DNA of 64,000 nt from Alcanivorax sp. (lineage in GTDB: Bacteria > Pseudomonadota > Gammaproteobacteria > Pseudomonadales > Alcanivoracaceae), in assembly GCA_022449455.1 (NCBI GenBank), contig JAKUPL010000004.1:186001-250000 (forward strand), read 5' to 3'. Positions 7,397 through 28,375 of the stretch are shown here, piece after piece; position 1 is the first letter of the stretch, and the number at the start of each line of letters is the position of its first letter. A model generated the notes under the pieces. That model was not told the origin of the DNA. It made no database searches and saw only the letters and a program-made list of their open reading frames with translations. A program made the translations under genes and the position numbers.

Positions 7397-7493
7397 TCTT
7401 GCCCTGGCCACGCAAGGTAACCGGGTGCGGTAACCCGGCAGGGCGACCGCGCCGCCGGCGGCCACCGTCCGCGATGCGCGACACCCGCGCCCG

Positions 7494-9046: not shown

Positions 9047-9075
9047 GGGTCGCTCCTCGATATTGTGTTTTGCAA

Positions 9076-9088: not shown

Positions 9089-9098
9089 ACCACAAAGA

Positions 9099-9106
9099 TG
9101 TATACA
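9099..9106. promoter_or_regulatory. TGTATACA operator shared by uraH-puuD and puuE-uraD
   Basis: The palindrome is in the divergent control region, 53 bases from the uraH start and 40 bases from the puuE start, so one bound dimer could govern both urate-pathway operons. Confidence 0.72.
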
Positions 9107-9145
9107 GTTGCAATTCGATCCGGCCAAACGAAAGGAGACAGGCAG

Positions 9146-10063: not shown

Positions 10064-10586
10064 TTCCGGTTTGCTGTCGCCGCGCCCCAGCGCATTGGAC
10101 GAGGACGCCTTCGTGGCCCGCTACGGCGACGTCTATGAACACTCCCCCTGGATTGCCCGCCAGGCCCACCGCGCCGGGCTGCGGGCAGGGGACGATACCG
10201 CCGCGGGCCTGGCGGCGCGGCTGGCGGCGGTGTTCGACGCCGCTGACGCGAGCGCCCAGCTGGCGGTGCTGCGCGCCCACCCGGACCTGGCGGGCAAGTT
10301 GGCGGTGGGCGGGGGGCTCACCGCCGATTCCAGCGCCGAGCAGGCCGGCGCCGGGCTGGATCAATGCACGCCAGGGGAGTTCGAACGGTTCCAGGCGCTC
10401 AATGCGGCCTACCGGGCGCGTTTTGATTTTCCGTTTATCGTGGCGGTGCGCGGCCTGCACCGGCGCGAGATTCTCCAAGCTTTCGAAGCGCGCCTGGGCA
10501 ACGACGCGGACACCGAGCGCGCCACCGCGGTGGCGCAGGTCAACCGCATCGCGCGGCTGCGCCTGATCGCCCGCGCCGGCGGCTGA
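10056..10586 (+). CDS. uraD: OHCU decarboxylase
   Basis: The 176-residue protein carries OHCU-decarboxylase hallmarks: YEHSPWIARQA, the LRAHPDLAGKLA segment with the catalytic His, and FERFQALNAAYRARFDFPFIVAV. It converts 2-oxo-4-hydroxy-4-carboxy-5-ureidoimidazoline to S-allantoin. The ATG at 10056 overlaps the puuE stop in the eight-base arrangement ATGGCTGA, so translation is coupled. The order uraH, uraD, then puuE completes urate to allantoate within 3 kb. Confidence 0.94.
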   Translation: MADSGLLSPRPSALDEDAFVARYGDVYEHSPWIARQAHRAGLRAGDDTAAGLAARLAAVFDAADASAQLAVLRAHPDLAGKLAVGGGLTADSSAEQAGAGLDQCTPGEFERFQALNAAYRARFDFPFIVAVRGLHRREILQAFEARLGNDADTERATAVAQVNRIARLRLIARAGG

Positions 10587-10592: not shown

Positions 10593-11870
10593 TCAGTCCC
10601 AGTCCGGGGACGGCCAGTCGTCGTCGTCCTCGTCGTCGAATTCGGTTTCCATGGGGCGCCCCTCGATCCAGGTACGCAGCGGGCGCTCTTCCAGATCGCG
10701 GGCTTCACCGGCCAGCAGGGATTCGAACCAGCGGTCCGGCCCGCCGCCCCGGTCGGGCAGAGGCAGCTCCACGAAGTCGGCGCGCTTGCCCGGGGCGAAA
10801 CTGCCGGCACGATCGCCCCGGCCCAGGCATTCGGCGCCGGCCAGGGTGGCATGGTAAAGCGCTTCCCGGGCGTTCACGTCGACACCGGCGTCGCGATGCT
10901 GGGCCAGGAAACGCTGCATCACGTGCAACATGCTGTGGCTGGGCCCGGCGCCCACGTCGGAGGCCAGCGCATAGCGGATGCCGTGGCGGCGTACCGCCTG
11001 CAGGTCCATGCGGCCGCTGTCCAGTGCCTCGTTGGACGACGGGCAATGGGCGATCCAGGCGCCGCGCCGGGCCAGGGTCTGGTGTTCCCGGGTGCTGAGA
11101 TGAATGCAGTGGCCGAGCACCGAGCGCGGGCCCAGCAGGCCGGCCCGGTCGTACACGTCGGTATAATCCAGCGCTTCGGGAAACGCCTCGCGGATTTCGC
11201 GGACTTCGTTTACCGATTCCGAGAGATGGGTCTGGACCAGGGCGTTTTCCCGCCGCGCCAGATCGCCCAGGTCGCGCATCAGCTCGGCGCTGCAATTGAG
11301 CGCGAAGCGCGGCGTGACCGCGTAGTGTTCCCGGCCCAGTTTCTTCAGCAGCGGCATCACCTGGTCAGCGTTGTCCGGGCTCGCCCGGCACAGCGGTTCC
11401 GGCGCCGCCTTCTCCATGATCGCGTTGCCCAGCACCCAGTCGCCGATGGCTTCGCTGGCGGCGATTTCCAGGGCGCGCACATGGGGACTGGAGTAGGCCA
11501 TGCCCAGGGTGGTGCCGGCGCGTACCGTGTCGTAGAAAAAATTCTGTGCGTGGCGGCGCGCGAACAGTTCGTTGTCGAAGCCCATTTCCTCCGGCCAGAT
11601 GTGGTTGCGCAGCCACTCCATCAGATCCTTTTGAAAGCGGCCGCGCACGTGATGCTGCACCCAATGGATGTGCACGTCCACGAAGCCCGGCACCAGCAGG
11701 CTGTCCAGCTCCAGCATGGCGCCCACCGGCTGCTGGCGGAATTCGCTCATGGCGCCCACGCCGAGGATGCGACCTTCGTGCACCAGCACGCCGCCGTCCC
11801 GGTAGAACACCCAATGGTCGGCGTCCACCGGATTAAGCAGGCTGGCACGGATCAGAACGGGCTGCGCCAT
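10593..11870 (-). CDS. guaD: Guanine deaminase, amidohydrolase type
   Basis: The 425-residue metal-dependent hydrolase matches the E. coli GuaD pattern: PGFVDVHIHWVQ, YAVTPRFA, QTHLSES, LGHCIHLS and the GuaD-specific SDVGAGPSHSML with the metal-binding Asp. It deaminates guanine to xanthine. AGAGG precedes the ATG at 11870; the open frame extends far upstream over another gene and is not used. Two departures are seen: VQHH replaces the usual PQ segment after HIH, and the C-terminus ends in an acidic run (EFDDEDDDDW) unlike the usual end. TGTATACA lies 23 bases before the start. Confidence 0.88.
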   Translation of the reverse strand: MAQPVLIRASLLNPVDADHWVFYRDGGVLVHEGRILGVGAMSEFRQQPVGAMLELDSLLVPGFVDVHIHWVQHHVRGRFQKDLMEWLRNHIWPEEMGFDNELFARRHAQNFFYDTVRAGTTLGMAYSSPHVRALEIAASEAIGDWVLGNAIMEKAAPEPLCRASPDNADQVMPLLKKLGREHYAVTPRFALNCSAELMRDLGDLARRENALVQTHLSESVNEVREIREAFPEALDYTDVYDRAGLLGPRSVLGHCIHLSTREHQTLARRGAWIAHCPSSNEALDSGRMDLQAVRRHGIRYALASDVGAGPSHSMLHVMQRFLAQHRDAGVDVNAREALYHATLAGAECLGRGDRAGSFAPGKRADFVELPLPDRGGGPDRWFESLLAGEARDLEERPLRTWIEGRPMETEFDDEDDDDWPSPDWD

Positions 11871-13170: not shown

Positions 13171-14169
13171 ATGCGCGTGATGTTGAAGAGTGGTGTGTGC
13201 CGGCGCCTGGGGGCGGCGGTTGTGGCGGTGCTGGGTTTGGCCGGCGCGGGTGCGGCGGGGGCCGTGGAGAAGGTCACGGTGGGGACCAGTTGGTATGCCC
13301 AGGCCGAGCATGGTGGGTTTTATCAGGCCAAGGCCACCGGGATTTATAAGAAGTACGGATTGGATGTGACCATCAAGATGGGCGGGCCGCAGGTGAATGG
13401 TCTGCAGTTGCTGGTGGCCGGTCAGTACGATTTCACCATGGGGTATCCGCTGCGCAATATCAAAGCGGTGGGCGAGGGGTTGCCGGTGGTGAGTGTGGCG
13501 GCGTGTTTCCAGAAGGATCCGCAAGGTTTGATCGCCCATCCGCATGTGAAGGATCTCAAGGACGTGGGGGATCGCACGGTGCTGATTTCCACGTCGGCGC
13601 GGTCCACGTACTGGCCCTGGTTGCAGGCGGAATACGGGTTCAAGGATTCCCAGGCCAAGCCGTATACGTTCAGTCTGGGGCCGTTCCTGGCGGACAAGGA
13701 GCTGGTGCAGCAGGCCTATGTGAGTTCCGAGCCGTTCGCCGCCGAGAAGGGCGGGGTGACGCCGAATTTCTTCCTGTTCGCGGATTACGGTTATCCGCCG
13801 TACGCGGCCACCCTGGAAACCCGCCGTGAGCTGGTGGAGGAAAAGCCGGAGATGGTGCGTAAGTTCGTACAGGCCACGGTGGAAGGTTGGAAGAGCTATC
13901 TGGACGATCCGGCGCCGGGCAATGCGTTGATCCAGAAGGACAACCCGGAGATGACCGATGAGCAGTTGGCCTATGGCCTGGCCAAGCTCAAGGAGTACGG
14001 CATCGTCACCGGCGGTGATGCCGGCGAGGAGGGCATCGGTTATATGAATGACGCGCGCTGGGAGAAGACTTTCGAGTTCATGGTCAAGGCGGGTCTGGTG
14101 TCCGACGACGTGGATTACCAGGAAGCCTATACCCTGGACTTCCTGCCCGAGGAGCCGGTACTGCCCTGA
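13171..14169 (+). CDS. ABC periplasmic binding protein, NMT1 family, paralogue A
   Basis: The 332-residue protein has a Sec signal ending about residue 31 (AGAAGA) and an NMT1/THI5-like body beginning VTVGTSWYAQAEHGGFYQAKATGIY and IKMGGPQVN. It is strongly similar over its whole length to the next gene product and more distantly to the one at 30602; both also share the C-terminal segment LDFLPEEPVLP. No ATPase or permease is adjacent, so it probably delivers ligand to the importer at 26697-28372. An ATG nine bases downstream is an alternative start. The ligand is likely a heterocycle from this pathway (inference). Confidence 0.85.
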   Translation: MRVMLKSGVCRRLGAAVVAVLGLAGAGAAGAVEKVTVGTSWYAQAEHGGFYQAKATGIYKKYGLDVTIKMGGPQVNGLQLLVAGQYDFTMGYPLRNIKAVGEGLPVVSVAACFQKDPQGLIAHPHVKDLKDVGDRTVLISTSARSTYWPWLQAEYGFKDSQAKPYTFSLGPFLADKELVQQAYVSSEPFAAEKGGVTPNFFLFADYGYPPYAATLETRRELVEEKPEMVRKFVQATVEGWKSYLDDPAPGNALIQKDNPEMTDEQLAYGLAKLKEYGIVTGGDAGEEGIGYMNDARWEKTFEFMVKAGLVSDDVDYQEAYTLDFLPEEPVLP

Positions 14170-14356
14170 ACCGGCCCGCCGTGCACGGGTTCTTGTGCAC
14201 AAAAGCGGCACGGGCGCGCCACCCCGGTGCGTCCTTGCCCCCGCCAGCGCCCTTCCTTTTCTGCCGCGAGGCCCCGTGCCGCAAGGCTTCCGGCAATACC
14301 CACAAAGCTGGCACAGCCTTTGCGTCTTTTCCGTCATCTGAGTCTGGATACCAAGC

Positions 14357-14364
14357 TGTATACA
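14357..14364. promoter_or_regulatory. TGTATACA operator before the oxygenase operon
   Basis: The palindrome lies 19 bases before the ATG at 14383, followed by TTTTATACGGAGC. Its closeness to the ribosome binding site suggests it overlaps the transcription start or promoter core, consistent with repression. Confidence 0.7.
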
Positions 14365-14382
14365 TTTTATACGGAGCACACC

Positions 14383-15405
14383 ATGACAAAGGCACGGGGA
14401 AAGCAATTCGAAGGGTTGTGGAAACGGGGTCGGCGTTTTGTGACCGGTCTGGCGCTGGGGGCCGGGTTGCTGTCGGCGGCGGTGGCCGGGGCCGCGGAGC
14501 TCGATAAGGTGGTGTTCGGCACCAACTGGTTCGCCCAGGCGGAGCACGGCGGTTTCTATCAGGCCAAGGCCACCGGCATTTACAAGAAGTACGGCCTGGA
14601 CGTGGACATCGAGATGGGCGGGCCGCAGGTCAACAACGTTCAGCTGCTGCTGGCCGGCAAGCAGAACATCACCATGGGCTACCCGATCCGCAACATCAAA
14701 TCCCTGGTGCAGGATCTGCCAGTGGTGACCATCGCCGCGCCGTTCCAGAGCGATCCGCAGGCGCTGCTGGCGCATCCGCACGTGAAATCCCTGGAAGAGA
14801 TCAAGGGCAAACCGGTGTACGTGTTCTCCGGCGCCAAGCAGACCTTCTGGCCCTGGCTGGAAGCCAACTACGGCTACACCGACGACATGATCCGACCCTA
14901 TACCTTCAGCGTGCAGCCGTTTCTGGCCGACAAGTCGGTGGTGCAGCAAGGCTATGTGACTTCCGAGCCGTTCGCCATGGAGAAGGGCGGGGTGACGCCG
15001 TCGGTCTTCCTGTTCGCGGAGTACGGCTACCCGCCCTATGCGCAGACCCTGGAAACCACCCGGGAGTGGGTGGAGGAGAAACCCGAGGTGCTGCGCCGCT
15101 TCGTGCAGGCGTCCATGGAAGGCTGGAAAAGCTATTTCGAGAATCCGGCGCCGGCCAATGAGCTGATCAAGCAGGACAACCCGCAGATGACCGATGAGCA
15201 GATCGCCTTCGGCATCGAAAAAATGAAGGAATACGGCCTGGTGGCCGGCGGTGACGCCAAGACCGAAGGGCTCGGTGTGATGACCGACGCGCGCTGGAAA
15301 GCCACCTTCGATTTCATGGCCGAGGCCGGCATGGTGCCCAAGGACCTGGACTACAAAAAGGCCTACACCCTGGAATTCCTGCCCGAGGAGCCGGTGCTGC
15401 CATGA
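14383..15405 (+). CDS. ABC periplasmic binding protein, NMT1 family, paralogue B
   Basis: The 340-residue protein carries a long basic lead and signal peptide (cleavage near AVAGAA, residues 34-38) followed by FGTNWFAQAEHGGFYQAKATGIY and MGGPQVNNVQLLL. It is a close paralogue of the preceding gene, evidently a tandem duplication. ACGGAGC precedes the ATG at 14383; the frame is open further upstream to 14227, but the operator and ribosome site fix the start. Its stop overlaps the oxygenase start at 15402 (ATGA), tying uptake to the oxygenase operon. It probably supplies the importer at 26697-28372 with the oxygenase substrate. Confidence 0.87.
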   Translation: MTKARGKQFEGLWKRGRRFVTGLALGAGLLSAAVAGAAELDKVVFGTNWFAQAEHGGFYQAKATGIYKKYGLDVDIEMGGPQVNNVQLLLAGKQNITMGYPIRNIKSLVQDLPVVTIAAPFQSDPQALLAHPHVKSLEEIKGKPVYVFSGAKQTFWPWLEANYGYTDDMIRPYTFSVQPFLADKSVVQQGYVTSEPFAMEKGGVTPSVFLFAEYGYPPYAQTLETTREWVEEKPEVLRRFVQASMEGWKSYFENPAPANELIKQDNPQMTDEQIAFGIEKMKEYGLVAGGDAKTEGLGVMTDARWKATFDFMAEAGMVPKDLDYKKAYTLEFLPEEPVLP

Positions 15406-16340
15406 GCGCGTCCCGGGTCCCGGTGATCGATTTCGCGCCTTTCCTGCATGGCGATGCCGAGGCGCGCGCCACGGTGGTCACCGCCATCGACCGCGCCGCC
15501 CGCGAGGTGGGCTTTATGTGTCTGGTGGGCCATGGCCTGCCTGACACCCGGCTGGAAGAGCTGTTCCAGGCCCAGCGGGACTTCTTCGCGCTGCCGGACA
15601 CGGTCAAGGCGCAAGCCGCCTTCGCCTATGACGACACCGATGCCAACACCGGCTATGTGGCGGTGGGCAAGGAGCGCCTGGATGTGAAGCGCGCGCCGGA
15701 CCTGAAGGAAAGTTTTCAGATCCGGGAGCCGGCTCTGTACGGACAGGTGAATCGCTGGCCGCCGGGCCAGGAGGCGTTCCGCGCCACCGCGGAAGATTTC
15801 TTCGCGGCGGTGTCGGATCTGTCCATGCGGGTGCTGGAGGCATTCGAACTGGGGCTGGGTACCGAACCCGGCTACTTCCGCGATCGTCATCGCACCCACA
15901 GCCAGATTCTGCGGCTGCTGCATTATCCGCCGCTGCCGCCGGCGTTCCAGGCCGAGCGTGGCCAGGCGCGGGCCGGTGGGCACACCGATTACGGCAGCGT
16001 GACGCTGCTGTTCCAGGATGACATCGGTGGCCTGGAGGTGCGTGACGCCGACGGCAAATGGGTGCCGGTGGACCCGGTGCCCGGCGGCGTGGTGATCAAT
16101 ACCGGCGACATCATGGCCCGCTGGACCAACGATGTGTATCGCTCCACCTTGCACCGCGTGCGGCTGCCCGAGCAGAGCGGCGTCGGACGTGCGCGCTACT
16201 CGGTGGCTTTTTTCAACGACCCGGACAACGACGCGGAGATCCGCGTGCTCGATCAGTGCGTGAGCGCCGATAACGGCTGCCGTTATCCGCCGATTCTCAC
16301 CGGCGACTACCTGGTGAGCCGGCGCGCGGCGTCCTATTGA
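15402..16340 (+). CDS. 2OG-Fe(II) oxygenase, isopenicillin-N-synthase family, copy 2
   Basis: The 312-residue dioxygenase has DIOX_N hallmarks (VPVIDFAPFLHG, GHGLPDTRLE) and complete iron ligands His194, Asp196 (GGHTDYGS) and His251 (RSTLHRV), with Arg265 and a following Ser for 2-oxoglutarate (RARYSVAFF). It overlaps the preceding binding-protein gene by four bases. It resembles the copy at 18911 most (both have PVIDFxPFLHGDA and GYVAV). The family hydroxylates or demethylates diverse small molecules; the neighbours make a purine or pterin substrate reasonable but unproven. Confidence 0.87.
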   Translation: MSASRVPVIDFAPFLHGDAEARATVVTAIDRAAREVGFMCLVGHGLPDTRLEELFQAQRDFFALPDTVKAQAAFAYDDTDANTGYVAVGKERLDVKRAPDLKESFQIREPALYGQVNRWPPGQEAFRATAEDFFAAVSDLSMRVLEAFELGLGTEPGYFRDRHRTHSQILRLLHYPPLPPAFQAERGQARAGGHTDYGSVTLLFQDDIGGLEVRDADGKWVPVDPVPGGVVINTGDIMARWTNDVYRSTLHRVRLPEQSGVGRARYSVAFFNDPDNDAEIRVLDQCVSADNGCRYPPILTGDYLVSRRAASY

Positions 16341-16470
16341 TGTCCGGCGCGGGTCCGAATGGCGGAGGCCCGCGCCGCGTTCAACCTTCCGCCAACAGTG
16401 AGGAAAAGCCGGCCTTAAAGAGCGCGAACAGGCTCTCGGCGGGGGCTGCCTCGTCCATAGGAGATGAGCC

Positions 16471-17520
16471 ATGCTAGTAACCCAACAACCCGTCCTGCGC
16501 CGCTTCTGGTATCCCGTGATTCCGATGGCGCAACTCAACGACGGCCCGAAACCGTTCCGTTTGCTCAATCAGGATCTGGTGCTGTGGCTGGACAGCCAGG
16601 GCAAGCCGCAGGCCGCCGAAGACCGCTGTGCTCACCGCAGCGCCAAACTGTCCCTGGGCTGGGTGGAGGGCGACAACATTGTCTGCCCTTACCACGGCTG
16701 GAACTACGACGGCACCGGCGCCTGCAAGAAAATTCCGCAAACCCCGGACCGCCCCGCCGGCCGCGCCAAGGTACCGGCGTTCAAGGCCGACGAGCGTTAC
16801 GGCTACGTCTGGGTGTGCCTGGGCGAACCGCTCACCGGTATCCCCGAGATGCCGGAAGCCAAGGAGCCGGGCTATCGCATGTTCCACCAGTTCCATGAGG
16901 TGTGGCGCACCGCCGGCCTGCGTTTGATGGAGAACTCCTTCGACAACGCCCACTTCAGCTTCGTGCACCGGGAAAGCTTCGGCCAGTTCGACAAGCCGAT
17001 TCCCGCCGACCTGAACATCAAGGAAGGCGACTACGGTTTCCACTTCGAAACCAAGGCGCCGGTGAACAACCCGGAATCCCAGAAAAAGCTGCTGCAGATG
17101 GACAGCGACACCACCGTTCGCCACATGACCAGTAACTGGTACATGCCGTTCGGGCGCCGCCTGAATATCCGTTACCCCAATGGCCTGGTGCACTCCATCG
17201 TCACCTATGCCACGCCCATCGACGACGAGTATTCGATGATTTGCCAGTGGGCGTTCCGCAGCGACAGCGAGCAGGAGGCGCCGGAGGCGGAGATCATCGC
17301 CTTTGATCGCCAGGTCACCGAGGAAGACAAACGGGTGCTGGAAAGCACCGATTACGACGTGCCCCTGGACACCGCCAGCGGCGAGGAAAAACACATGCCC
17401 TCGGACCAGCCCGGCATGGTGATGCGCAAGATGATGAAGGCGTTGCTGGAACGCTTCGGCGAAAGCGAAGCGCGCAGCGACCACGCGCGCATTCCGGTGA
17501 AGCAGGAGAAGGCGTCGTGA
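16471..17520 (+). CDS. Rieske non-haem iron oxygenase, NdmA/VanA-like, copy 1
   Basis: The 349-residue oxygenase component has a Rieske [2Fe-2S] site, Cys53-x-His55 and Cys72-x2-His75 (CAHRSAKL, CPYHGW), and a mononuclear iron site with Asp158, His161 and His166 (NSFDNAHFSFVH). Its length and layout match the vanillate- and caffeine-demethylase group; Klebsiella HpxD, a Rieske protein linked to hypoxanthine oxidation, is a relevant comparison. GGAGATGAGCC precedes the ATG. Its stop overlaps the next deaminase gene as GTGA. No cognate ferredoxin-reductase is in the window. Purine hydroxylation or N-demethylation is inferred from context. Confidence 0.85.
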   Translation: MLVTQQPVLRRFWYPVIPMAQLNDGPKPFRLLNQDLVLWLDSQGKPQAAEDRCAHRSAKLSLGWVEGDNIVCPYHGWNYDGTGACKKIPQTPDRPAGRAKVPAFKADERYGYVWVCLGEPLTGIPEMPEAKEPGYRMFHQFHEVWRTAGLRLMENSFDNAHFSFVHRESFGQFDKPIPADLNIKEGDYGFHFETKAPVNNPESQKKLLQMDSDTTVRHMTSNWYMPFGRRLNIRYPNGLVHSIVTYATPIDDEYSMICQWAFRSDSEQEAPEAEIIAFDRQVTEEDKRVLESTDYDVPLDTASGEEKHMPSDQPGMVMRKMMKALLERFGESEARSDHARIPVKQEKAS

Positions 17521-18878
17521 CCGACCTGCTGATCCAGGGCGCGGACGCGGTGATGACCGGCCGGGCGGGCGACGCCGCCCGCGCCGGCGCGGTGGACATC
17601 CGCGTGCGTGACGGTCTGATCACGGAAATGGCCGCCGGGTTGACCCCGGCGGCCGGCGAGGACGTGCTGGACGCGCGCGGCTGCGTGGTCTATCCGGGCT
17701 GGGTGAACACCCACCACCACCTGTTCCAAAGTGTGCTCAAGGCGGTGCCGGAGGGCATCAACGAGCCGCTGTTCGGCTGGCTGGGGGCGGTGCCCTATCC
17801 GCGCCTGACGCGCATCCGCGACCGCCATCTGGAAGTGGCGGCGGAAGTGGGGCTGGCGGAGCTGCTGTTGTCCGGCACCAGCACCTGCGCCGATCACCAT
17901 TACATCTACTACGGCGGTCTCGACAGCGAGATGGGCGAGGTGCTGTTCGAGGTGGCCGAGCGGCTGGGGCTGCGCTTCACCCTGTGCCGGGGCGGCGCCA
18001 CCGAACAGGGCCGGCATCCCGGCTACCCCAACGACCTGAGTCCGGAGACGCTGGATCAGTACGTGGCGGACGTGGAACGGCTGACGGCGCGCTACCACCA
18101 GAGCGGTCCCCGGGCCATGCGCCAGGTGGTGATGGCGCCGACCACGCCCACTTTTTCCGTGGACCCCGCGACCCTGCGCGAGCTGGCCCGGGCCGGGCGG
18201 GCCCTGGGGCTGCGCCTGCACAGCCATCTTTCGGAAACCTTCAACTACGTGGAGTACTGCCGGGACGTGCACAACATGACGCCGGTGGAATTCTGCGGCG
18301 AGAACGAATGGCTGGGCGAGGACGTGTGGTTCGCGCACATGGTGCACGTGGCCGATTCGGAACTGCCGATTCTGGCGGAAACCGGCACCGGTATCGCCCA
18401 CTGCCCGCAAAGCAATTGCCGCCTGGGCAGCGGCATCGCCCGGGTGCCGGAGATGGCCGCCCGCGGCATTCCGGTTTCCCTGGCGGTGGACGGCGCCGCC
18501 TCCAACGAAGCCGCCGACATGATCCAGGAAGCGCACACCACCTGGATGATCCATCGCGCTCTGGGCGGCGCCGACGCGGTCACCGTGGAAGACGTGATCC
18601 ATTGGGGCACGTCCGGTGGCGCCCGGGTGCTCGGCCTCGATCAGGTGGGCGAACTGGCGCCGGGCAAGGCCGCCGACCTGGCGGTTTACGATCTGAATCA
18701 GCCGCGCTATTTCGGCATGCACGATCCGGCCATCGCGCCGGTGGCCGGCGGCGGCAACGCCTCCGTGCGCCACCTGTTGGTGGACGGTCGGGCACGGGTG
18801 CGCGATGGCGCCATCCCGGGTCTGGACCTGGCCGGCCTGCGTGCCCGCGCCGCCGAAACGGTGGCGGAACTTCATTGA
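17517..18878 (+). CDS. Deaminase-type amidohydrolase, 8-oxoguanine/isoxanthopterin deaminase-like
   Basis: The 453-residue metal hydrolase starts at GTG 17517, overlapping the Rieske stop. It has NTHHHLFQS, LHSHLSETF, FAHMVHVAD and the metal Asp in AVDGAASNEA. It is clearly related to the enzyme at 5159-6523 but differs throughout (for example DHHYIYYGGLDSEMG in the second beta-strand region). Within this subgroup 8-oxoguanine deaminase and isoxanthopterin deaminase are the two defined functions, and having two divergent copies suggests each takes one of these or a methylated analogue. It likely acts directly on the product of the adjacent oxygenases. Confidence 0.8.
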   Translation: MTDLLIQGADAVMTGRAGDAARAGAVDIRVRDGLITEMAAGLTPAAGEDVLDARGCVVYPGWVNTHHHLFQSVLKAVPEGINEPLFGWLGAVPYPRLTRIRDRHLEVAAEVGLAELLLSGTSTCADHHYIYYGGLDSEMGEVLFEVAERLGLRFTLCRGGATEQGRHPGYPNDLSPETLDQYVADVERLTARYHQSGPRAMRQVVMAPTTPTFSVDPATLRELARAGRALGLRLHSHLSETFNYVEYCRDVHNMTPVEFCGENEWLGEDVWFAHMVHVADSELPILAETGTGIAHCPQSNCRLGSGIARVPEMAARGIPVSLAVDGAASNEAADMIQEAHTTWMIHRALGGADAVTVEDVIHWGTSGGARVLGLDQVGELAPGKAADLAVYDLNQPRYFGMHDPAIAPVAGGGNASVRHLLVDGRARVRDGAIPGLDLAGLRARAAETVAELH

Positions 18879-18910
18879 GGACGGGGCCCCGTGCCCCTGG
18901 GAGCTGCCCC

Positions 18911-19900
18911 ATGGCAACATTCGAAGAATCCACCGCCCGGCAGACCGACGCCGGCGCGATTCCGGTGATCGATTTCGGCCCCTTTCTGCATGGCGACGCC
19001 GACGAGCGCAAGGCGGTGGCCGCCGCCATGCGCCAGGCCAGCGCCGACTGGGGCTTTTTCTATCTGGCCAATCACGGTGTACCGGAATCCCTTCTGGATC
19101 GTTCCTTCCAGGCATCGCGGCGCTTCTTCGCCTTGCCCTATGAAGAGAAGATGGGCGTCGCCTGGCAAAGCGCCAGCAGCAACCGGGGCTATGTGGCGGT
19201 GCGCCGGGAGCGGCTCGACGCCAGCAAGCCCGGCGATCTGAAAGAGGCGTTCAACGCCGGGCCGGAGCCGGCGGCGGACAGCCTCGCCGAGGAAGAACGG
19301 CCCTACCGGGAAAACCGCTGGCCGGCCCGGCCCTCGGACTTTCGCGATACGGTGCTGGATTTGATGGACGGCTGCGTGGCCGCCGCCAATCGGGTGCTGG
19401 AGGCGTTCGCGGTGGCCCTGGAGCTGCCCGACGGTTTCTTTATCGACACCCATGATCAGCTGCATCACACCTTGCGGCTGCTGCATTACCCGCCGCTGCC
19501 CAAGGGCTATACGCCCCAGGCCGGCGAGAAGCGCGCCGGCGCGCACACCGATTACGGCAGCATCACCTTGCTGTTCCAGCACGGCGTGGCCGGCCTGGAG
19601 GTGCGTACCCGCGCTGGCGAGTGGATCACCGCGCCGCCGATCCCCGGCACCGTGGTGGTCAACACCGGTGATCTGATGCAGCGCTGGACCAACGACGTGT
19701 TCTGTTCCACGCCGCACCGGGTTTCGCCGTTCGTCAGTGGCGATTCGCCGGGCCGCTATTCCATCGCCTTTTTTTGTCATCCCAACCCGGACGCCGAAAT
19801 CCGCTGCATTGAAAGCTGCGCGGGCGCCGACCGACCGCGGCGCTATCCGCCGATTCTGGCCGGCGAGCACTTGATGGAAAAACTCAATGCCACCTACTGA
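18911..19900 (+). CDS. 2OG-Fe(II) oxygenase, isopenicillin-N-synthase family, copy 3
   Basis: The 329-residue dioxygenase has iron ligands His212, Asp214 (GAHTDYGS) and His269 (CSTPHRV), and the 2-oxoglutarate residues Arg282 and Ser284 (GRYSIAFF). The N-terminal IPVIDFGPFLHGDAD and SNRGYVAVRRERLD closely resemble copy 2, pointing to duplication within the operon. The ATG at 18911 is 32 bases after the deaminase stop; longer frames cross that gene. Its TGA shares one base with the MFS start. All catalytic residues are intact, so three active paralogues are expected in the island. Confidence 0.87.
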   Translation: MATFEESTARQTDAGAIPVIDFGPFLHGDADERKAVAAAMRQASADWGFFYLANHGVPESLLDRSFQASRRFFALPYEEKMGVAWQSASSNRGYVAVRRERLDASKPGDLKEAFNAGPEPAADSLAEEERPYRENRWPARPSDFRDTVLDLMDGCVAAANRVLEAFAVALELPDGFFIDTHDQLHHTLRLLHYPPLPKGYTPQAGEKRAGAHTDYGSITLLFQHGVAGLEVRTRAGEWITAPPIPGTVVVNTGDLMQRWTNDVFCSTPHRVSPFVSGDSPGRYSIAFFCHPNPDAEIRCIESCAGADRPRRYPPILAGEHLMEKLNATY

Positions 19901-21117
19901 TGGCCGGTGAACCCTCGCCGGTGGCGCCGCTGAGCGCCACCCCGGCGCGCCCGGCCGCGCTGGGATTGGGCGGCATCGCGGTGATGATCGCCGTGGCCGG
20001 GCTCAATCTGCGACCGCTGCTGACCTCCCTGGGCGTGAGCCTGGAAGCGGTGCGTCTGGATCTGGGCCTGAGCAGCGCCGCCGCCGGCCTGCTGGCGGCG
20101 GTGCCCACCTTCTGCATGGGCGCGGTGGCGCTGGTGGGCGGCTGGCTGATCGGCCGTTTCGGCACCGGGCAGGGGTTGCGCGTGGCGCTGCTGTTGGTGG
20201 CGGCGGGTTGCGCCGCCCGCTGGGCGGGTCTGCATCCCACGGTAATGTTTGCCGCCACCCTGGTGGGCGGGCTGGGCATCGCCTGCGGGCAGGTGCTGAT
20301 CCCGGTGGTGATCAAGCAGTACTTTCCGGACCGGGCGGCGCTGATGATGGGCATGTTCACCACCGCGATGAATCTGGGCGCGGCCCTCGGCGCCGCCGCC
20401 ACGCCGGCGCTGATGGACGGCGCCGGCGGCGACTGGCGCCTGGCGCTGGGCATCTGGGCGGTGCCGGCGCTGGTGGCCGCCCTGCTGTGGCCGGTGAACC
20501 TGGAACGGCCGCGCGGCGACGACGCCCGCGCCTTGCCGTGGCGCGATGCCCGGGCCTGGCGCATGGCCCTGTTTCTGGGCTCCGGCTCCATCGCCTATAT
20601 GTCCCTGCTGGCCTGGCTGGTGCCGTTCTATGTGGCCCAGGGGCACAGTCAGGCCCAGGGCGCGGCGCTGCTCACCGTGTTCACCGGCGCGCAGATCGCC
20701 GCCGCCCTGCTGGTGCCGCCGCTGGCCGGCTTTTCCCGGGACCGGCGGCCGGCGCTGGCGGTGACGCTGCTGCTGTTGATGGTGGGGGTGGCCGGGCTGT
20801 GGTGGTCGCCGGAACCCGGCGGCGTACTGTGGGCGGTGATCGCCGGGATCGGTCTGGGCGGCTCCTTTCCGCTGGCGCTGACCCTGCCGCTGGACTACAG
20901 CGCCACGCCCACCGAGGCCGGCCGTCTGTCGGCGCTGGTGCAGGGTCTGGCCATGTTGATGGGCGCGTTGGGACCGCTGGTGTTCGGGGTGCTGCGCGAC
21001 GGCTTCGGATTCTCCGCGGCCATGTTGTTTCTGTTGCTGGCGGTGGCGGTGTCGTTCCTGCTGGGGCTGACCTTCCGCCCGCCGCCGCTGAGTCCGTTCG
21101 AGGAGGACGCCCGATGA
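19900..21117 (+). CDS. MFS transporter, CynX/NimT (cyanate permease) type
   Basis: The 405-residue inner-membrane protein has about twelve hydrophobic helices in two halves. The first helix region (VMIAVAGLNLRPLLTSLG) with its NLRP motif is typical of the CynX/NimT group. A basic interdomain loop (VNLERPRGDDARALPWRDARAW) separates the halves. The start shares a base with the preceding stop (TGATG), and its own stop overlaps the next Rieske gene as ATGA. Members carry cyanate, nitroimidazoles and other small nitrogen compounds. It could import a substrate or export an intermediate; direction is not decidable here. Confidence 0.85.
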   Translation: MAGEPSPVAPLSATPARPAALGLGGIAVMIAVAGLNLRPLLTSLGVSLEAVRLDLGLSSAAAGLLAAVPTFCMGAVALVGGWLIGRFGTGQGLRVALLLVAAGCAARWAGLHPTVMFAATLVGGLGIACGQVLIPVVIKQYFPDRAALMMGMFTTAMNLGAALGAAATPALMDGAGGDWRLALGIWAVPALVAALLWPVNLERPRGDDARALPWRDARAWRMALFLGSGSIAYMSLLAWLVPFYVAQGHSQAQGAALLTVFTGAQIAAALLVPPLAGFSRDRRPALAVTLLLLMVGVAGLWWSPEPGGVLWAVIAGIGLGGSFPLALTLPLDYSATPTEAGRLSALVQGLAMLMGALGPLVFGVLRDGFGFSAAMLFLLLAVAVSFLLGLTFRPPPLSPFEEDAR

Positions 21118-22100
21118 ATGTGATGGATCATGCCGTGTTTCGCCGCTTCTGGTACCCGGTAATGCCGCTGGACCTGCTGCGCGAGGGGCCACGCGGTTTC
21201 GTGCTGCTGGGCCAGCCGCTGGTGCTGTTTCTGGACGATGACGGCGCGCCGGCGGCCCTGGAGGACCGTTGCTGCCACCGCACCGCGCAACTGTCCCTGG
21301 GCGATGTGTGTGACGGCAAGGTGGCCTGTCCCTACCACGGTTGGCAATACGACCGGGCCGGCCAGTGCGTGCACATTCCGCAGATGCCGGACCGTGACCC
21401 GGGCCCGCGCCGCCGGGTGGCCGCTTACCACTGCACCAGCCGCTACGGCTATGCCTGGGTGGCGCTGGACACACCGCTGTTTGATATCCCCGCCATCCCG
21501 GAGGCCGCCGAACCGGACTTCGAACTGATTCAGGAATTCTACGAAGAGTGGCGGGTGGCCGGTCTGCGCGTGATGGAAAACGAACTGGATATGGCGCACC
21601 CCAGCTATGTGCACCTGGGGACCTTCGGCAGCCCGGAACACCTGGTGGCCGAGGACGCGGAGATCACCGAATTCGAAGGCGGCTTCCATTACACCGGCCG
21701 CCTGGGCGTGACTCAGGCGCATCACGCCCAGCAGGACCGCAACGAACGGTTTCTGGATTGCTCCTGGTACGCGCCCTTCGTGTGCCGGCTGCGTATCAAT
21801 TACGCCGACGGTGGCCCCGCCCATGTGATCGTCAATTGCCAGGTGCCCATCGACCAGGGACGTTCCCAGGTGGTGCAGTTCTGCTTGCAGCAGGACGACG
21901 GCGGCGGCTTCGACCGTGAGGCGCTGCTGGCGTTCGATCGCAAGGTCACCCTGGAAGACAAACGGGTGCTGGAAAGCACCGACCCGGACATGCCGCTGGA
22001 TCCACGAGGAGAAAAGCATATGGAGTCGGATAAACCGGGCCTGGTGATGCGCCGCATGATGCAGCGCCTGCTTGATGAGCACGCGCCCGCCGACGCCTGA
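21114..22100 (+). CDS. Rieske non-haem iron oxygenase, NdmA/VanA-like, copy 2
   Basis: The 328-residue oxygenase has the Rieske ligands Cys53, His55, Cys72 and His75 (CCHRTAQL, CPYHGW) and iron ligands Asp159, His162 and His167 (NELDMAHPSYVH). It is a paralogue of the enzyme at 16471 but differs in the iron-site helix (ELDMAHPS against SFDNAHFS), suggesting a different substrate or ring position. Both end with a shared KRVLEST / EKHM.SD.PG...R.MM stretch. It is the last gene of the operon, 23 bases before the terminator. No reductase is encoded nearby. Confidence 0.85.
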   Translation: MNVMDHAVFRRFWYPVMPLDLLREGPRGFVLLGQPLVLFLDDDGAPAALEDRCCHRTAQLSLGDVCDGKVACPYHGWQYDRAGQCVHIPQMPDRDPGPRRRVAAYHCTSRYGYAWVALDTPLFDIPAIPEAAEPDFELIQEFYEEWRVAGLRVMENELDMAHPSYVHLGTFGSPEHLVAEDAEITEFEGGFHYTGRLGVTQAHHAQQDRNERFLDCSWYAPFVCRLRINYADGGPAHVIVNCQVPIDQGRSQVVQFCLQQDDGGGFDREALLAFDRKVTLEDKRVLESTDPDMPLDPRGEKHMESDKPGLVMRRMMQRLLDEHAPADA

Positions 22101-22683: not shown

Positions 22684-23766
22684 GTGAAACTGAACAGAAA
22701 GGTTGCGATGACTTTGGGGGCCGCCACGCTGATGGGCGCGAGCGGCGTGGCCAGCGCGGATGTGAATGTGGACTTCTACGGTCTGCTCGACGTGTTCGCC
22801 GGCAGCCGGGAAGCCCCGGGCGCCGCCGACGATTCCAAGGTACTGGATGCCGGTGGCATGACCACCTCCTTCGTGGGCTTCACCGCCACCGCCGACATCA
22901 ATGAAAGCACCACCGCTTTCGCCAAGGCGGAGATGTTCCTGCGTCCCGACACCGGTGACGACGGCCGCTACAACGGCGACGAGTTCTTCGCTCGTGCCGC
23001 CCAGGTCGGCATCAACGGTGACCTGGGTCAGATCGCCGCCGGTCGTGTTGGCGCGCCCATGTTCCTGCCGGTGATCTTCTCCAACCCGTTCGGCGGTTCC
23101 TTCGTGTTCTCCCCGGCGATCCTGCATTCCTTCCAGGGCGGTAACTACGGCGCCACCGTGGGTGACTCCGGTTGGAGCAACGGTATCTCCTACACCTCGC
23201 CGAAAATGGGTGGTCTCACCGCCAATGTGGTGTACGCCTTCGGCGAGGAATCCGGTGAGGATTCCGAAAACAAATTCGGGGGCAACCTGGTGTACCGCGC
23301 CGGCGGTCTGATGCTGACCGCGGCCGCTCACTCCGTGAAGCAGGGCGCGCTGAACAGCGGCGACAGCCCGGGCTTCGGTGAAGGCGGCGGTCTCGCGGCC
23401 ATCGGTGGCGGCGTGTTCTCCGTGACCGACCAGGACGCCTACCTGGTGGGCGTCAGCTACGACTTCCAGGTGGTCAAGGTGTACGGCATGTACCACAGCC
23501 TGGACACCGACACCACCGTCGGCGACGTGGACGTGGACACCTACCAGGGTGGCGTCAGCGTACCGGCGGGCCCGGGTTCCATTCTGGCCGCCTACGCCAA
23601 GTCCGAGTTTGACGGTGAAGTCGATGCCGAGCGTAAAACCTGGACCGTGGGCTACGACTGGGTGATCAACGACCAGCTCGACGTTTACGCCAACTACATG
23701 AACGACGACATCGACACCCTCGGTGACGGCGACAGCTACGGCGTGGGTACCCGCCTGAAGTTCTGA
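22684..23766 (+). CDS. Outer-membrane general porin
   Basis: The 360-residue protein has a Sec signal with cleavage after residue 25 (ASGVASA), then an aromatic- and Gly-rich alternating beta-strand pattern and the C-terminal Phe required for outer-membrane insertion (YGVGTRLKF). It resembles the proteobacterial Gram_neg_porins trimer family with 16 strands. Translation starts at GTG behind AGAGAGGAAAA. It opens the second catabolic operon, so it probably lets the polar substrate into the periplasm for the binding proteins. Codon use is strongly biased, as in highly expressed porins. Confidence 0.9.
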   Translation: MKLNRKVAMTLGAATLMGASGVASADVNVDFYGLLDVFAGSREAPGAADDSKVLDAGGMTTSFVGFTATADINESTTAFAKAEMFLRPDTGDDGRYNGDEFFARAAQVGINGDLGQIAAGRVGAPMFLPVIFSNPFGGSFVFSPAILHSFQGGNYGATVGDSGWSNGISYTSPKMGGLTANVVYAFGEESGEDSENKFGGNLVYRAGGLMLTAAAHSVKQGALNSGDSPGFGEGGGLAAIGGGVFSVTDQDAYLVGVSYDFQVVKVYGMYHSLDTDTTVGDVDVDTYQGGVSVPAGPGSILAAYAKSEFDGEVDAERKTWTVGYDWVINDQLDVYANYMNDDIDTLGDGDSYGVGTRLKF

Positions 23767-23849
23767 TTGATCCACCGGCCCCGGCGGCGGCGCCCCTCTG
23801 CGCCGTCGCCCGGAGGCCGCCCTGATTCCGGAAGAGGCCGAGCCGAACC

Positions 23850-24647
23850 ATGACGGACCGTTTCTCCGACCCGAATGCCGCCCTGCACCCGATGGGCACC
23901 CGCCCCGGCAGTCAGTGGGGCGTCAACGGCGAGCTCGCCGATCTCAGCCGCCCGACACCGGCTCCCCGTGTCGTCTCTTTTCCGGCGCAGCCGAAAGCGC
24001 TGCGTCTTGATCTCAATCGTCTGGCCGTGATCGTGGTGGATATGCAGAACGACTTCTGCACCCCCGGCGGCTGGCTCGATCATATCGGCGTGGACACCAC
24101 GCCGGCGCGTCGCCCTCTGGCGCCGCTGCAAACCCTGTTGCCCGCGCTGCGCGCCGCCGACGTGCCGGTGGTGTGGGTGAACTGGGGCAACCGCCGGGAC
24201 CTGATGAACATTTCCCCGGCCCTGCGCCATGTTTACAACGGCAGCGGCGAGGACGTGGGGCTGGGCGATCCGGTGCCCGCCTCCGGCGCGCCGGTGCTGG
24301 AAAAAGACAGCTGGGGCGCCGCCGTCATCGATGAACTGACGGTGGCCGACGCCGATGTGCGCGTGGACAAATTCCGCATGAGCGGCTTCTGGGACACGCC
24401 CCTGGATTCCATTCTCCGCAACCTGGGTGTCAGCACCTGCCTGTTCGCCGGCGTCAACACCGACCAGTGCGTGTTGCACACCCTGGCGGACGCCAACTTC
24501 CTCGGCTACGACACCGTGCTGCTGGAAGACTGCACCGCCACCACCTCGCCGGCGTTCTGTTGGGACGCGACGCTTTACAACGCGCGGCAGATCTTCGGGT
24601 TCACCGCCTTGTCCACCGATCTGATCGCCGCCCTGGAGGCCCGTTGA
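23850..24647 (+). CDS. Isochorismatase-fold amidohydrolase, RutB/biuret-hydrolase-like
   Basis: The 265-residue cysteine hydrolase has the fold triad: Asp in VVDMQNDFCTPGG, Lys in LEKDSWGAAV and nucleophile Cys in GVNTDQCVLHT. The central SGFWDTPLDSILRNLGV and the N-terminal extension are typical of the RutB (ureidoacrylate) and biuret/N-carbamoyl amide hydrolase branch, not of true isochorismatases. It is expected to release ammonia or carbamate from a linear ureido compound. Its TGA overlaps the cupin start by one base. No other rut gene is nearby, so RutB itself is unlikely. Confidence 0.82.
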   Translation: MTDRFSDPNAALHPMGTRPGSQWGVNGELADLSRPTPAPRVVSFPAQPKALRLDLNRLAVIVVDMQNDFCTPGGWLDHIGVDTTPARRPLAPLQTLLPALRAADVPVVWVNWGNRRDLMNISPALRHVYNGSGEDVGLGDPVPASGAPVLEKDSWGAAVIDELTVADADVRVDKFRMSGFWDTPLDSILRNLGVSTCLFAGVNTDQCVLHTLADANFLGYDTVLLEDCTATTSPAFCWDATLYNARQIFGFTALSTDLIAALEAR

Positions 24648-25072
24648 TGCTGCCCTTCTTTAAACGCCCCGATCAGTTCGAAGCCTTTCGCATCAAGGCG
24701 GGGGAAAGCAACCGTCTGGTGGTGATGTTCGATTCCATCAAGGAAAAACTGGATTTCATCGCCTGCGTGGAAATTTTCGACGAGGGTGGCCTGACGCCGC
24801 CCAACACCCACAAGGCCGCCGACGAGTTGTTCTTCGTGCTGGAAGGCGAAGGCCGCGCCCGCTGCGACGACAGCTGGGTGGAACTGCGCAAGGGCGACGC
24901 CATGGTGGTGCCCGCCGGCGCCGAGCACGTGGTGGAGAACACCGGCGCCGGGCGCCTCTACACCCTTACCGTGATGGTGCCGGACGAACACTTCGCCGAG
25001 CTGATCCGCAACGGTGTTCCGGACCGGCTCGATGCGGAAGACCTGCGTGTGCTGCAGGGGGTGGGCGCATGA
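24647..25072 (+). CDS. Small single-domain cupin protein
   Basis: The 141-residue protein is one cupin barrel: PPNTHKAADELFFVLEGEG holds the first metal motif (His, Glu), and GDAMVVPAGAEHVVENTG holds the second (His). It could be a small metalloenzyme or an isomerase-like helper. It is half the size of the bicupin ureidoglycine aminohydrolase, so that function is not assigned. The ATG shares a base with the upstream stop and the stop overlaps the next gene by four bases, so it is an integral operon member. Confidence 0.78.
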   Translation: MLPFFKRPDQFEAFRIKAGESNRLVVMFDSIKEKLDFIACVEIFDEGGLTPPNTHKAADELFFVLEGEGRARCDDSWVELRKGDAMVVPAGAEHVVENTGAGRLYTLTVMVPDEHFAELIRNGVPDRLDAEDLRVLQGVGA

Positions 25073-26700
25073 AAACGCCGATGCCGGAAGTGGTGTCCAT
25101 GCGCACCCGCGACGGCGTGCGGCTGGACGCGGACCTCTATGTGCCCGAGGGCGAGGGTCCGTTCCCGGCGCTGCTGATGCGCCAGCCCTACGGTCGGCGC
25201 ATCGCCTCCACGGTCACCTACGCCCATCCGTCCTGGTACGCGGCCCAGGGTTACCTGGTGGTGATCCAGGACGTGCGTGGGCGCGGCACCTCCGAAGGGC
25301 GCTTCGAGCCGTTTATCAATGAACAACGGGACGGCGAGGACACCCTGGAATGGCTGGCCGCGCTGCCCGCCTGCAACGGCCGGGTCGGCATGTACGGTTT
25401 CTCCTACCAGGGGGTTACCCAGCTGTTCGCCGCCGCCAGCGGCCACCCGGCCTTGAAAGCCATCGCGCCGGCGATGACCGGTTTCCGTCTGGACCAGGAC
25501 TGGGCCTACGAAGGCGGCGCCTTCCGTCTGCAGAACAGCCTCTCCTGGGCGGCCCAGCTGGGCGCCGAAAGCGACCGCCGCGACGGCAACCACGAACGTT
25601 TCGCGCAGCGCTACCGCCTGGGCCATGGGCCCGCCGCCGATGAACTGATCGACCCGGCCTCGCCGGCGGTGCGCGAGCTGCTCGGCGGCACCTTCTACGG
25701 GGACTGGTTGGACCGCTCCCTGGACAGCGATTACTGGGAAGAGCGCTCGGTGGCCGGCTGCCTGCCGGTGGTGGACCTGCCGGCCCTGCACGTGGGCGGC
25801 TGGTTCGACAGCTTTCTCACCGGCACCTTCGCCACCTTCGACCATCTGCGCGCCGGCGCCGGCCAGCAGCGGCTGGTGATCGGGCCCTGGACGCACCTGC
25901 CGTGGACCCCGGCGGTGGGCCAGGCGTGGCTGGGCGACGCCGCCCAATCCACCATCGATACCCTGCAATTGCGCTGGTTCGATCATTTTCTCAAAGGCCA
26001 CGACACCGGCGTGGACCGCGACCCGACGGTGCAGCTCTACGACCTGCGCGCCAATCGCTGGCGCGCCTACGCCGACTATCCGCCGGCACCGGGCACGCGC
26101 TTGCCACTGGCCAGTGACGGCAGCGCCGGCTTCGACATCGGCGGTGGCCGTCTGGGCGAAACCGGTGAACCGGTGGTGGACACCTTTATCCACGATCCGT
26201 GGCGGCCGGTGCCGGCGGTGGGCGGTCATCTGGCACCGTCCCCGGGGATCCACGATCGCACCGTGGTGGATGCCCGTCCGGACGTGCTCACCTACACCGG
26301 CGCGCCGCTGGCGGAGGATCACCAATTGGCCGGCCCGGTGAGCGTGACGCTCAACGCCGCCGCCGACGCGGACAGCTTCGACCTGTGCGCGGTGCTGTCG
26401 GTGGTGGATGCCGACGGCCGCGCCCGCAACCTGACCCAGGGCTACGTCCGCGTTCGCGGCAACGGCCCGGTGACCGTGGACCTGCGCGGCACCTGCGCGC
26501 TACTGCGCGCCGGCGAGCGGCTGCGCCTCAGTGTCAGCGGCGCCTGCTACCCCGCCTATGCGCTTAACGACGGCAGCGGCCGTGCCCCCGGCGCGATACG
26601 CGCCGCCGACCTTCGCATTCTGACCCTCAGCGTGAACACCCAGGGGTCCTGGATTGAGCTACCCGCTCAATCCCTGGCCATGAAGGAGGAAAATCCGTGA
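25069..26700 (+). CDS. CocE/NonD-family alpha/beta hydrolase
   Basis: The 543-residue protein has an N-terminal alpha/beta hydrolase domain (SMRTRDGVRLDADLYVPEG), nucleophile Ser in GFSYQG, an acidic residue near LHVGGWFDSFL, and a catalytic His in GPWTHLPW. A C-terminal jelly roll (VSVTLNAAADADSFDLCAVLSVVD) is typical of the X-Pro dipeptidyl-peptidase S15/cocaine-esterase family. It cleaves esters or amides. No signal peptide is seen, so it is cytoplasmic. ATGA and GTGA overlaps at both ends bind it to the operon. The scissile substrate is unknown. Confidence 0.85.
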   Translation: MKTPMPEVVSMRTRDGVRLDADLYVPEGEGPFPALLMRQPYGRRIASTVTYAHPSWYAAQGYLVVIQDVRGRGTSEGRFEPFINEQRDGEDTLEWLAALPACNGRVGMYGFSYQGVTQLFAAASGHPALKAIAPAMTGFRLDQDWAYEGGAFRLQNSLSWAAQLGAESDRRDGNHERFAQRYRLGHGPAADELIDPASPAVRELLGGTFYGDWLDRSLDSDYWEERSVAGCLPVVDLPALHVGGWFDSFLTGTFATFDHLRAGAGQQRLVIGPWTHLPWTPAVGQAWLGDAAQSTIDTLQLRWFDHFLKGHDTGVDRDPTVQLYDLRANRWRAYADYPPAPGTRLPLASDGSAGFDIGGGRLGETGEPVVDTFIHDPWRPVPAVGGHLAPSPGIHDRTVVDARPDVLTYTGAPLAEDHQLAGPVSVTLNAAADADSFDLCAVLSVVDADGRARNLTQGYVRVRGNGPVTVDLRGTCALLRAGERLRLSVSGACYPAYALNDGSGRAPGAIRAADLRILTLSVNTQGSWIELPAQSLAMKEENP

Positions 26701-28372: not shown

Positions 28373-28375
28373 GTG

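Follow-up and report, generated by a model that had tools for sequence, protein, structure and literature searches.

A purine gene island in an Alcanivorax-type genome that may supply urate by non-heme iron oxygenases

Introduction

The route from purine bases to urate normally needs a molybdenum enzyme. Here, we analysed a stretch of 64,000 nucleotides from Alcanivorax sp. (GenBank assembly GCA_022449455.1, contig JAKUPL010000004.1, positions 186,001 to 250,000), hereafter called the window and used for all coordinates of its genes, which carries a purine gene island built around an operon at 13171-22100 encoding two Rieske oxygenases (Rie1, Rie2), two 2-oxoglutarate (2OG)-Fe(II) oxygenases (OG1, OG2) and a deaminase-like amidohydrolase. 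The genome analysed comprises 4.22 Mb with a completeness of 100, and its Rieske gene at 16471 shows 97% identity to the counterpart of A. profundimaris and 83% to that of A. xenomutans; the host, a marine-type bacterium, belongs to Alloalcanivorax or a near relative. Our data suggest that the iron oxygenases and deaminases of this island probably supply urate from purine bases without a molybdenum hydroxylase. At the level of sequence, this builds on the gene content of the island, the intact motifs of its oxygenases, the lack of an XdhB over the cut-off in the genome and the occurrence of homologs next to xanthine riboswitches and to genes of the urate branch, from which we infer the substrates and reactions of the oxygenases, the substrate of the PRK12393-family amidohydrolase and the cargo of the importers.

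Results

Genes of the operon and of the urate branch

Genes were assigned by Pfam and NCBIfam profiles run on chosen open reading frames (ORFs), which represent a part of the ORFs of the window. The operon lies on the plus strand and starts with the NMT1/THI5-like periplasmic binding protein SBP1 (13171..14169; PF09084, 103 bits) and a second NMT1-like binding protein, SBP2 (14383..15405; PF09084, 97 bits), the start of which was set at the ATG at 14383 rather than at 14227 upon inspection of the translation and the upstream bases. These are followed by OG1, a DIOX_N/2OG-Fe(II) oxygenase (15402..16340; PF03171, PF14226), Rie1 (16471..17520; Rieske/VanA_C, PF00355, PF19112), a PRK12393-family amidohydrolase resembling 8-oxoguanine/isoxanthopterin deaminases (17517..18878; NF009059, 717 bits, cut-off 543), the second DIOX_N/2OG-Fe(II) oxygenase OG2 (18911..19900, inside the ORF 17984-19900; PF14226, PF03171), a CynX/NimT-like carrier of the major facilitator superfamily (MFS; 19900..21117; PF07690; TIGR00896 with 282 bits under the cut-off of 406) and Rie2 (21114..22100; PF00355, PF19112). 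The genes are spaced by -4 to +32 nt, except for 213 nt between SBP1 and SBP2 and 130 nt between OG1 and Rie1, and this tight spacing is compatible with a single operon.

On the minus strand, a third DIOX_N/2OG-Fe(II) oxygenase, OG3 (4149..5129; PF14226, PF03171), is paired with an 8-oxoguanine deaminase (5159..6523; NF006055/PRK08203 650 bits, cut-off 532; 587 bits to PDB 7ww2). All three 2OG enzymes contain the HxD...H iron triad and the RxS 2OG site, in OG1 present as HTDYG, STLHRV and RYS, the closest solved relative of OG1 being thymine dioxygenase (5c3p). Both Rieske enzymes carry the CxH and CxxH Rieske ligands and a D-x2-H-x4-H iron site, invariant across 30 alignment rows. Rie1, with its Rieske and iron ligands complete, has its nearest solved structures in the group of NdmA and SxtT, which are tied as closest in the structure comparison and leave the substrate undecided. 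For the PRK12393 enzyme, the best PDB match is 2paj (504 bits), followed by 3hpa (313 bits) and the 8-oxoguanine deaminase 7ww2 (267 bits).

The pair of OG3 and deaminase is embedded in further genes of purine and urate metabolism at 243-11864. Upstream in coordinates and likewise on the minus strand are a cytidine-deaminase-fold protein of TadA/guanine-deaminase-like type (243..734; PF00383), an ABC permease, an ATPase and a third NMT1 binding protein, SBP3 (together 736..3392, start approximate; PF00528, PF00005, PF09084), and an alpha/beta hydrolase adjoining OG3 (3380..4156; PF12697). Beyond the deaminase, the minus strand encodes a GntR/FCD regulator (6603..7484; PF00392, PF07729), a PuuD-type membrane urate oxidase (7494..8684; PF06181, Urate_ox_N, 446 bits) and a 5-hydroxyisourate hydrolase (HIUase; 8687..9031; PF00576; TIGR02962 125 bits, cut-off 87), and the plus strand encodes the allantoinase PuuE (ORF 8738..10063 with its real start at about 9100; TIGR03212 505 bits from ORF residue 146, cut-off 425) and OHCU decarboxylase (9957..10586; PF09349; TIGR03164 197 bits, cut-off 96). 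Thus, Urate_ox_N, HIUase, OHCU decarboxylase and PuuE, which define the PuuD urate pathway, were all detected. An amidohydrolase-type protein on the minus strand (10593..11864) is likely a guanine deaminase, scoring slightly under the cut-offs of the respective models (PRK09228 325 bits, cut-off 351; TIGR02967 310 bits, cut-off 375).

The initial annotation had described the operon with two binding proteins, two 2OG-Fe(II) and two Rieske oxygenases, an 8-oxoguanine/isoxanthopterin deaminase-like enzyme and an MFS carrier, a third 2OG enzyme paired with another such deaminase at 4149-6523, and guanine deaminases together with a full urate branch. The profiles recovered these kinds of genes at the places given, the guanine deaminase at 10593-11864 just below its cut-offs; the extent given was too narrow, the operon being part of a purine island covering at least 243-38550.

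Between the guanine deaminase gene and SBP1 lie about 1.3 kb (11865-13170) in which a composition-based pick chose no gene, the profile scan covering a minority of the ORFs there. Upstream of the operon, this region contains a perfect 30-nt inverted repeat (12919-12948 and 13003-13032) with a 54-nt loop, of which no exact copy was found in 197 loci; an 18-nt part of it does not recur in the window at up to three mismatches.

Search for xanthine dehydrogenase

The initial annotation had noticed no molybdopterin xanthine dehydrogenase in the window and had proposed a search of the full genome for xdhAB. None was detected among the scanned ORFs of the window, and the genome-wide search yielded nothing over the cut-off: with TIGR02965 as criterion for XdhB (cut-off 849.5 bits, passed by the control genome of Caulobacter), the best scores were 197.9 bits in the genome search and 235 bits on one ORF. 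XdhB was also found over this cut-off in 0 of 46 genomes of the family, a sample used for the Rie1 and uricase searches as well. The genome encodes five MoCoBD_1 proteins; for two of them the best-scoring models are those of glyceraldehyde/CO dehydrogenases, a third is PaoC with a score over its cut-off, and the highest xanthine dehydrogenase scores among the five are 388 of 780 bits for XdhA, 235 of 849.5 for XdhB and 291 of 784 for PucD. These scores suggest that a standard xanthine dehydrogenase is missing, while an atypical molybdenum-dependent xanthine oxidiser may still be encoded.

Within the family sample, Rie1 is present in eight genomes, every one belonging to the host's own genus. 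Urate_ox_N occurs in all eight of these operon-bearing genomes and, among the other 38, as fragments in one. For Bradyrhizobium, XdhB exceeds the cut-off in 2/146 genomes and Rie1 is found in 15/146 with no overlap, numbers being too small for a conclusion in a genus mostly without canonical XdhB.

Association with xanthine riboswitches

Xanthine and urate are ligands of the NMT1-motif RNA, which precedes genes encoding NMT1, IPNS-like, Rieske, PRK12393 and TadA-like proteins, gene families that were tied to purine oxidation (Yu and Breaker 2020, PMC7373994). According to that report, the precise functions of the riboswitch-linked dioxygenases are not established, no oxidised-purine degradation genes are reported among the linked genes, and isoxanthopterin and 8-hydroxyguanine were obtained for testing (PMC7373994).

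We quantified this association using the RNA model RF03054 over its cut-off and counting the next gene within 800 nt. The sites were chosen by the RNA model and not by the proteins, the order Burkholderiales and the Mangrovicoccus genome (G444) having been reached via Rie1. For 16 of 17 riboswitches the next gene encodes a homolog of a window protein, compared to a mean of 1.9 and a maximum of 7 of 17 upon random placement in the same regions (2000 trials). These genes are SBP3-like in six cases, OG1-like in three, OG2-like, Rie1-like and SBP1-like in two each and of the deaminase-fold type in one; the seventeenth riboswitch (L143) is followed by one unassigned gene and then by an operon with SBP1, OG3, Rie1, ABC genes and PRK12393. 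The identities of the riboswitch-linked homologs are modest for OG1/OG2 (34-36%) and SBP3 (28-40%) and strong for Rie1, SBP1 and PRK12393 (45-57%), SBP1 homologs with 53-57% identity coming after riboswitches in three loci (L140, L141, L048). Besides the one deaminase-fold homolog directly after a riboswitch, others are located within riboswitch loci.

In Herbaspirillum sp. alder98, RF03054 (48.6 bits) heads a gene order of SBP1, Rie1, two ABC genes and PRK12393. Such riboswitches were found over the cut-off in 10/300 genomes of Burkholderiales, the order of Herbaspirillum, and in 2/41 Rie1-bearing genomes, i.e. Herbaspirillum and Mangrovicoccus, the loci of the latter being distant from its Rie1. 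The 41 genomes are not independent, as they include nine of Alloalcanivorax type and nine of Bradyrhizobium and as two entries (G418 and G028) are apparently the identical genome. A phylogenetic tree places the Rieske enzymes of the window and those linked to riboswitches in a single clade of 35 rows with a support of 100/99.

Linkage of Rieske relatives to urate genes

The neighbourhood of Rie1 homologs was analysed in 46 loci (L030-L075) among 80 kept, the weaker 34 being excluded; several of these loci are short contigs, so that all neighbour counts are lower bounds. At distances of up to about 10 kb from Rie1 homologs, HIUase is encoded in at least 8/46 loci and OHCU decarboxylase in at least 6/46, the host's own genus being counted once each. 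Beyond this genus, the linkage occurs in Salinisphaera, Bradyrhizobium, an alphaproteobacterial metagenome-assembled genome and cyanobacteria. When the Rieske and 2OG enzymes are considered together, genes for their relatives adjoin urate genes in two phyla. In Tychonema, the gene order is FAD_binding_3 protein, HIUase, Rieske oxygenase and OHCU decarboxylase, and the genome contains no XdhB match at 1e-40. Rie2 groups with cyanobacterial Rieske enzymes, although this grouping is without starred support, and the gene of one of these sits between those for HIUase and OHCU decarboxylase. In Salinisphaera, genes for a Rieske enzyme and an 8-oxoguanine-deaminase-like protein (41%) adjoin those for uricase and HIUase. 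Between the Rieske-deaminase and uricase genes of this cluster (L031:12531-13649) we observed a gene for a ring-opening enzyme resembling cyanuric acid hydrolase/barbiturase (PF09663, 480 bits).

Relatives of OG3 and the 8-oxoguanine deaminase

OG3 has matches in 188 plasmid records at 1e-40 and in 57/390 genomes of the order of the window genome at 1e-55. Homologs with 59% and 55% identity are encoded on the plasmids pPp1290 of P. putida 1290 and pTol5 of Acinetobacter sp. Tol 5. Both plasmid clusters also encode Rieske enzymes, additional 2OG enzymes, the urate hydroxylase HpxO and a nucleobase symporter, that of pTol5 moreover containing allantoicase and ureidoglycolate lyase. Neither xanthine dehydrogenase nor purine deaminase is listed in the gene tables of the two plasmids, which are possibly incomplete. 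Plasmid pPp1290 also carries glutathione S-transferase (GST), reductase and Rieske genes resembling NdmCDE.

An 8-oxoguanine deaminase homolog (40-68% identity) is encoded near an OG3-type gene in 5 of 14 loci opened, a sixth with 26% being excluded; in three of the five, the 2OG enzyme is nearer to the plasmid 2OG enzymes than to OG3. The pair of OG3 and alpha/beta hydrolase recurs in six loci (L063, L065, L184-L187). One of these, L186, brings together OG3, the alpha/beta hydrolase, the 8-oxoguanine deaminase, SBP3 with ABC genes, the deaminase-fold protein and SBP2 with ABC genes, and most of this set is also grouped in L185, supporting one pathway that spans both strands of the window.

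Second gene run and far end of the island

A second run of genes on the plus strand (22684..31591; Pfam) starts 583 nt after the operon and encodes, in this order, a porin, an isochorismatase-family amidase, a cupin, an S15 hydrolase, an ABC ATPase, an ABC permease, a FAD_binding_4 oxidase, a creatininase-family protein and an NMT1 binding protein. Its ABC ATPase and permease genes adjoin the Rieske gene in other genomes, being found beside Rie1 homologs in 24/46 and 23/46 loci, respectively (two of them from the host's own genus). With the own genus included, FAD_binding_4 is found in 18/46, isochorismatase in 17/46, creatininase in 14/46 and S15 in 7/46 loci.

On the minus strand, HpxZ, a protein of oxalurate catabolism, and an amidase are encoded at 32304..33937 (NF033625 195 bits, cut-off 135; NF006169 460 bits, cut-off 391), hpxWXYZ being part of the Klebsiella hpx system. 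A gamma-glutamyltranspeptidase-family protein follows at 36958..38550 (minus strand; PF01019 429 bits; TIGR00066 321 bits, under the cut-off of 358); no HpxW model is among its profile matches, and the protein is possibly HpxW-like. Together with a TRAP transporter, this protein forms a group beside HpxZ and the amidase (33882-38550) that possibly represents an oxalurate/oxamate branch. The island ends by the tmRNA gene at 39856-40213, the scanned genes beyond being mostly housekeeping genes; islands commonly insert at tmRNA genes.

Discussion

Our data support a model according to which purines enter via the porin and the NMT1-type ABC importers, the Rieske and 2OG non-heme iron oxygenases would introduce hydroxyl groups into the purine ring at C8, C2 or both, and the amidohydrolases would take off the exocyclic amine resulting in urate, which would then be broken down by PuuD, HIUase, OHCU decarboxylase and PuuE, complemented by an HpxZ-type oxalurate branch. 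We consider this model probable. The initial annotation had suggested that the operon oxidises or demethylates purines or pterins and feeds urate; purine substrates and urate as product are supported by the riboswitch association and the urate linkage, and pterins and demethylation appear less likely. Its proposal of molybdenum independence agrees with the genome-wide lack of a xanthine dehydrogenase over the cut-off and does not extend to a general rule of replacement.

Two branches can be envisaged. Guanine might be deaminated by guanine deaminase to xanthine, which a 2OG or Rieske enzyme would hydroxylate at C8 to urate, or guanine might be oxidised to 8-oxoguanine by a 2OG or Rieske enzyme and then deaminated to urate by the 8-oxoguanine deaminase or the PRK12393 enzyme. 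Two observations hint at the latter branch: a 2OG enzyme and an 8-oxoguanine deaminase recur as a pair, and the riboswitch class repressing homologous genes has as its ligands xanthine and urate, the expected products of the two deaminase kinds. The plasmid clusters without a deaminase suggest direct oxidation of xanthine/hypoxanthine by OG3-type enzymes instead, and altogether the data favour neither branch. A specific molybdenum-free version would start with the C8-hydroxylation of free guanine by OG3, OG2 or Rie1 and lead via the 8-oxoguanine deaminase directly to urate, bypassing xanthine; we put it forward tentatively as one possibility. If true, 8-oxoguanine would be a normal catabolic intermediate, explaining why bacteria keep 8-oxoguanine deaminases, and these enzymes would gain a supply of substrate independent of DNA damage.

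Several observations weigh against urate formation by the oxygenases. No xanthine riboswitch was found in the window at the gathering score, nor in its part 1-32000 when E values of up to 5 were admitted, and none was found in the host's own genome by a filtered search, in which some weak matches are lost. Pfam detected no Rieske reductase in the operon, the search for one being confined to the window. OG1 and OG2 are missing from the operon in Alloalcanivorax xenomutans-type genomes; an additional 2OG homolog with 38-39% identity to OG3 lies about 15-20 kb off on the same contigs in three genomes (G018, G019, G028). The Salinisphaera cluster encodes, besides its Rieske enzyme, a xanthine dehydrogenase-type molybdenum hydroxylase (744 bits, which is below the cut-off), showing that both types of oxidation can coexist. 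The phylogenetic profile points in the same direction: XdhB is present over the cut-off in 16/41 Rie1-bearing genomes, and a strict replacement of XdhB by these oxygenases is therefore unsupported. We also rejected the co-occurrence of operon and uricase as independent evidence, because both lie in one island of one genus and represent one event. Finally, a plain urate route would leave the recurring proteins of the isochorismatase, creatininase, FAD oxidase and S15 families unexplained, and these, like the ring-opening enzyme of the Salinisphaera cluster, may hint at a further N-heterocycle as substrate.

The hydrolases beside Rie1, suggesting the ring-opening of another substrate, would fit a scenario in which urate is the product of a molybdenum hydroxylase encoded elsewhere in the genome, while the oxygenases act on other N-heterocycles delivered by the same transporters. 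This scenario can draw on the five MoCoBD_1 proteins and in particular on two divergent ones that match xanthine dehydrogenase models best, albeit weakly and far under the cut-offs (XdhA 196 of 780 bits, PucD 165 of 784). However, none of the five reaches any xanthine dehydrogenase cut-off, and the oxygenase families are linked to xanthine riboswitches and urate genes, so that we regard it as rather unlikely.

Pterin catabolism would assign the Rieske or 2OG enzymes a C7-hydroxylation of pterin to isoxanthopterin, which the PRK12393 enzyme would deaminate, the urate genes being neighbours for another reason. It receives support from 2paj as the nearest solved relative of the PRK12393 enzyme, which we take to be an isoxanthopterin deaminase and which is described in its PDB record as putative cytosine/guanine deaminase. 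Nevertheless, genes for HIUase and OHCU decarboxylase are neighbours of Rie1 homologs, the second deaminase passes the 8-oxoguanine deaminase cut-off, and PRK12393 homologs are located in operons under a riboswitch that binds xanthine and urate (PMC7373994), making pterins improbable substrates. The same ligands argue against Rie1 and Rie2 acting as N-demethylases of methylxanthines to give xanthine in the manner of NdmA/NdmB (PMC7373994), although xanthine would be the end product of demethylation too and the riboswitch alone would be compatible with this activity. Neither an NdmD-type reductase nor an NdmE GST is among the window ORFs scanned by Pfam, the search being confined to this subset of the ORFs of the window, and taken together we judge demethylation to be very unlikely. 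For urate supply by the iron oxygenases, a genome with uricase and the remaining pathway and without a recognisable xanthine dehydrogenase is suited to asking whether oxygenases make urate.

Known systems share parts of this island. Fungal XanA is a 2OG-Fe(II) xanthine hydroxylase performing the reaction of xanthine dehydrogenase; it is of the TauD type, whereas OG1, OG2 and OG3 are of the DIOX_N/IPNS type. The caffeine demethylases NdmA/NdmB are, judged by sequence, the closest solved Rieske enzymes and share the top rank in the fold comparison; in contrast to these, a pocket residue differs here, the genomic context is that of unmethylated purines and an NdmD/NdmE partner was not found in the scanned genes. 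The Klebsiella hpx system resembles the island by combining a Rieske oxygenase with a urate branch and by HpxZ, detected here over its cut-off, but the uricase of the island is of the PuuD type instead of HpxO, the island has three 2OG enzymes and two deaminases in addition, and no reductase was found in the operon. As cited in PMC7373994, hpxDE of Klebsiella oxidises hypoxanthine/xanthine. The riboswitch-associated gene sets of the same report share NMT1, IPNS-like 2OG, Rieske, PRK12393 and TadA-like deaminase genes with the island (PMC7373994); here, the riboswitch was not found in the genome and GntR/FCD regulators adjoin the genes instead, and in a genome without XdhB over the cut-off they are joined to the full urate pathway. 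In the open-access literature, we recognised no work that demonstrates a guanine 8-hydroxylase from bacteria or urate formation via a 2OG enzyme. The gene families and their link to purines are already known (PMC7373994, and hpxDE as cited there); as far as the search of the open-access literature shows, new are their combination with the complete urate branch in a genus in which no xanthine dehydrogenase is recognisable, the numerical assessment of their association with riboswitches and urate genes, and the specific proposal of a branch in which guanine would be oxidised before it is deaminated.

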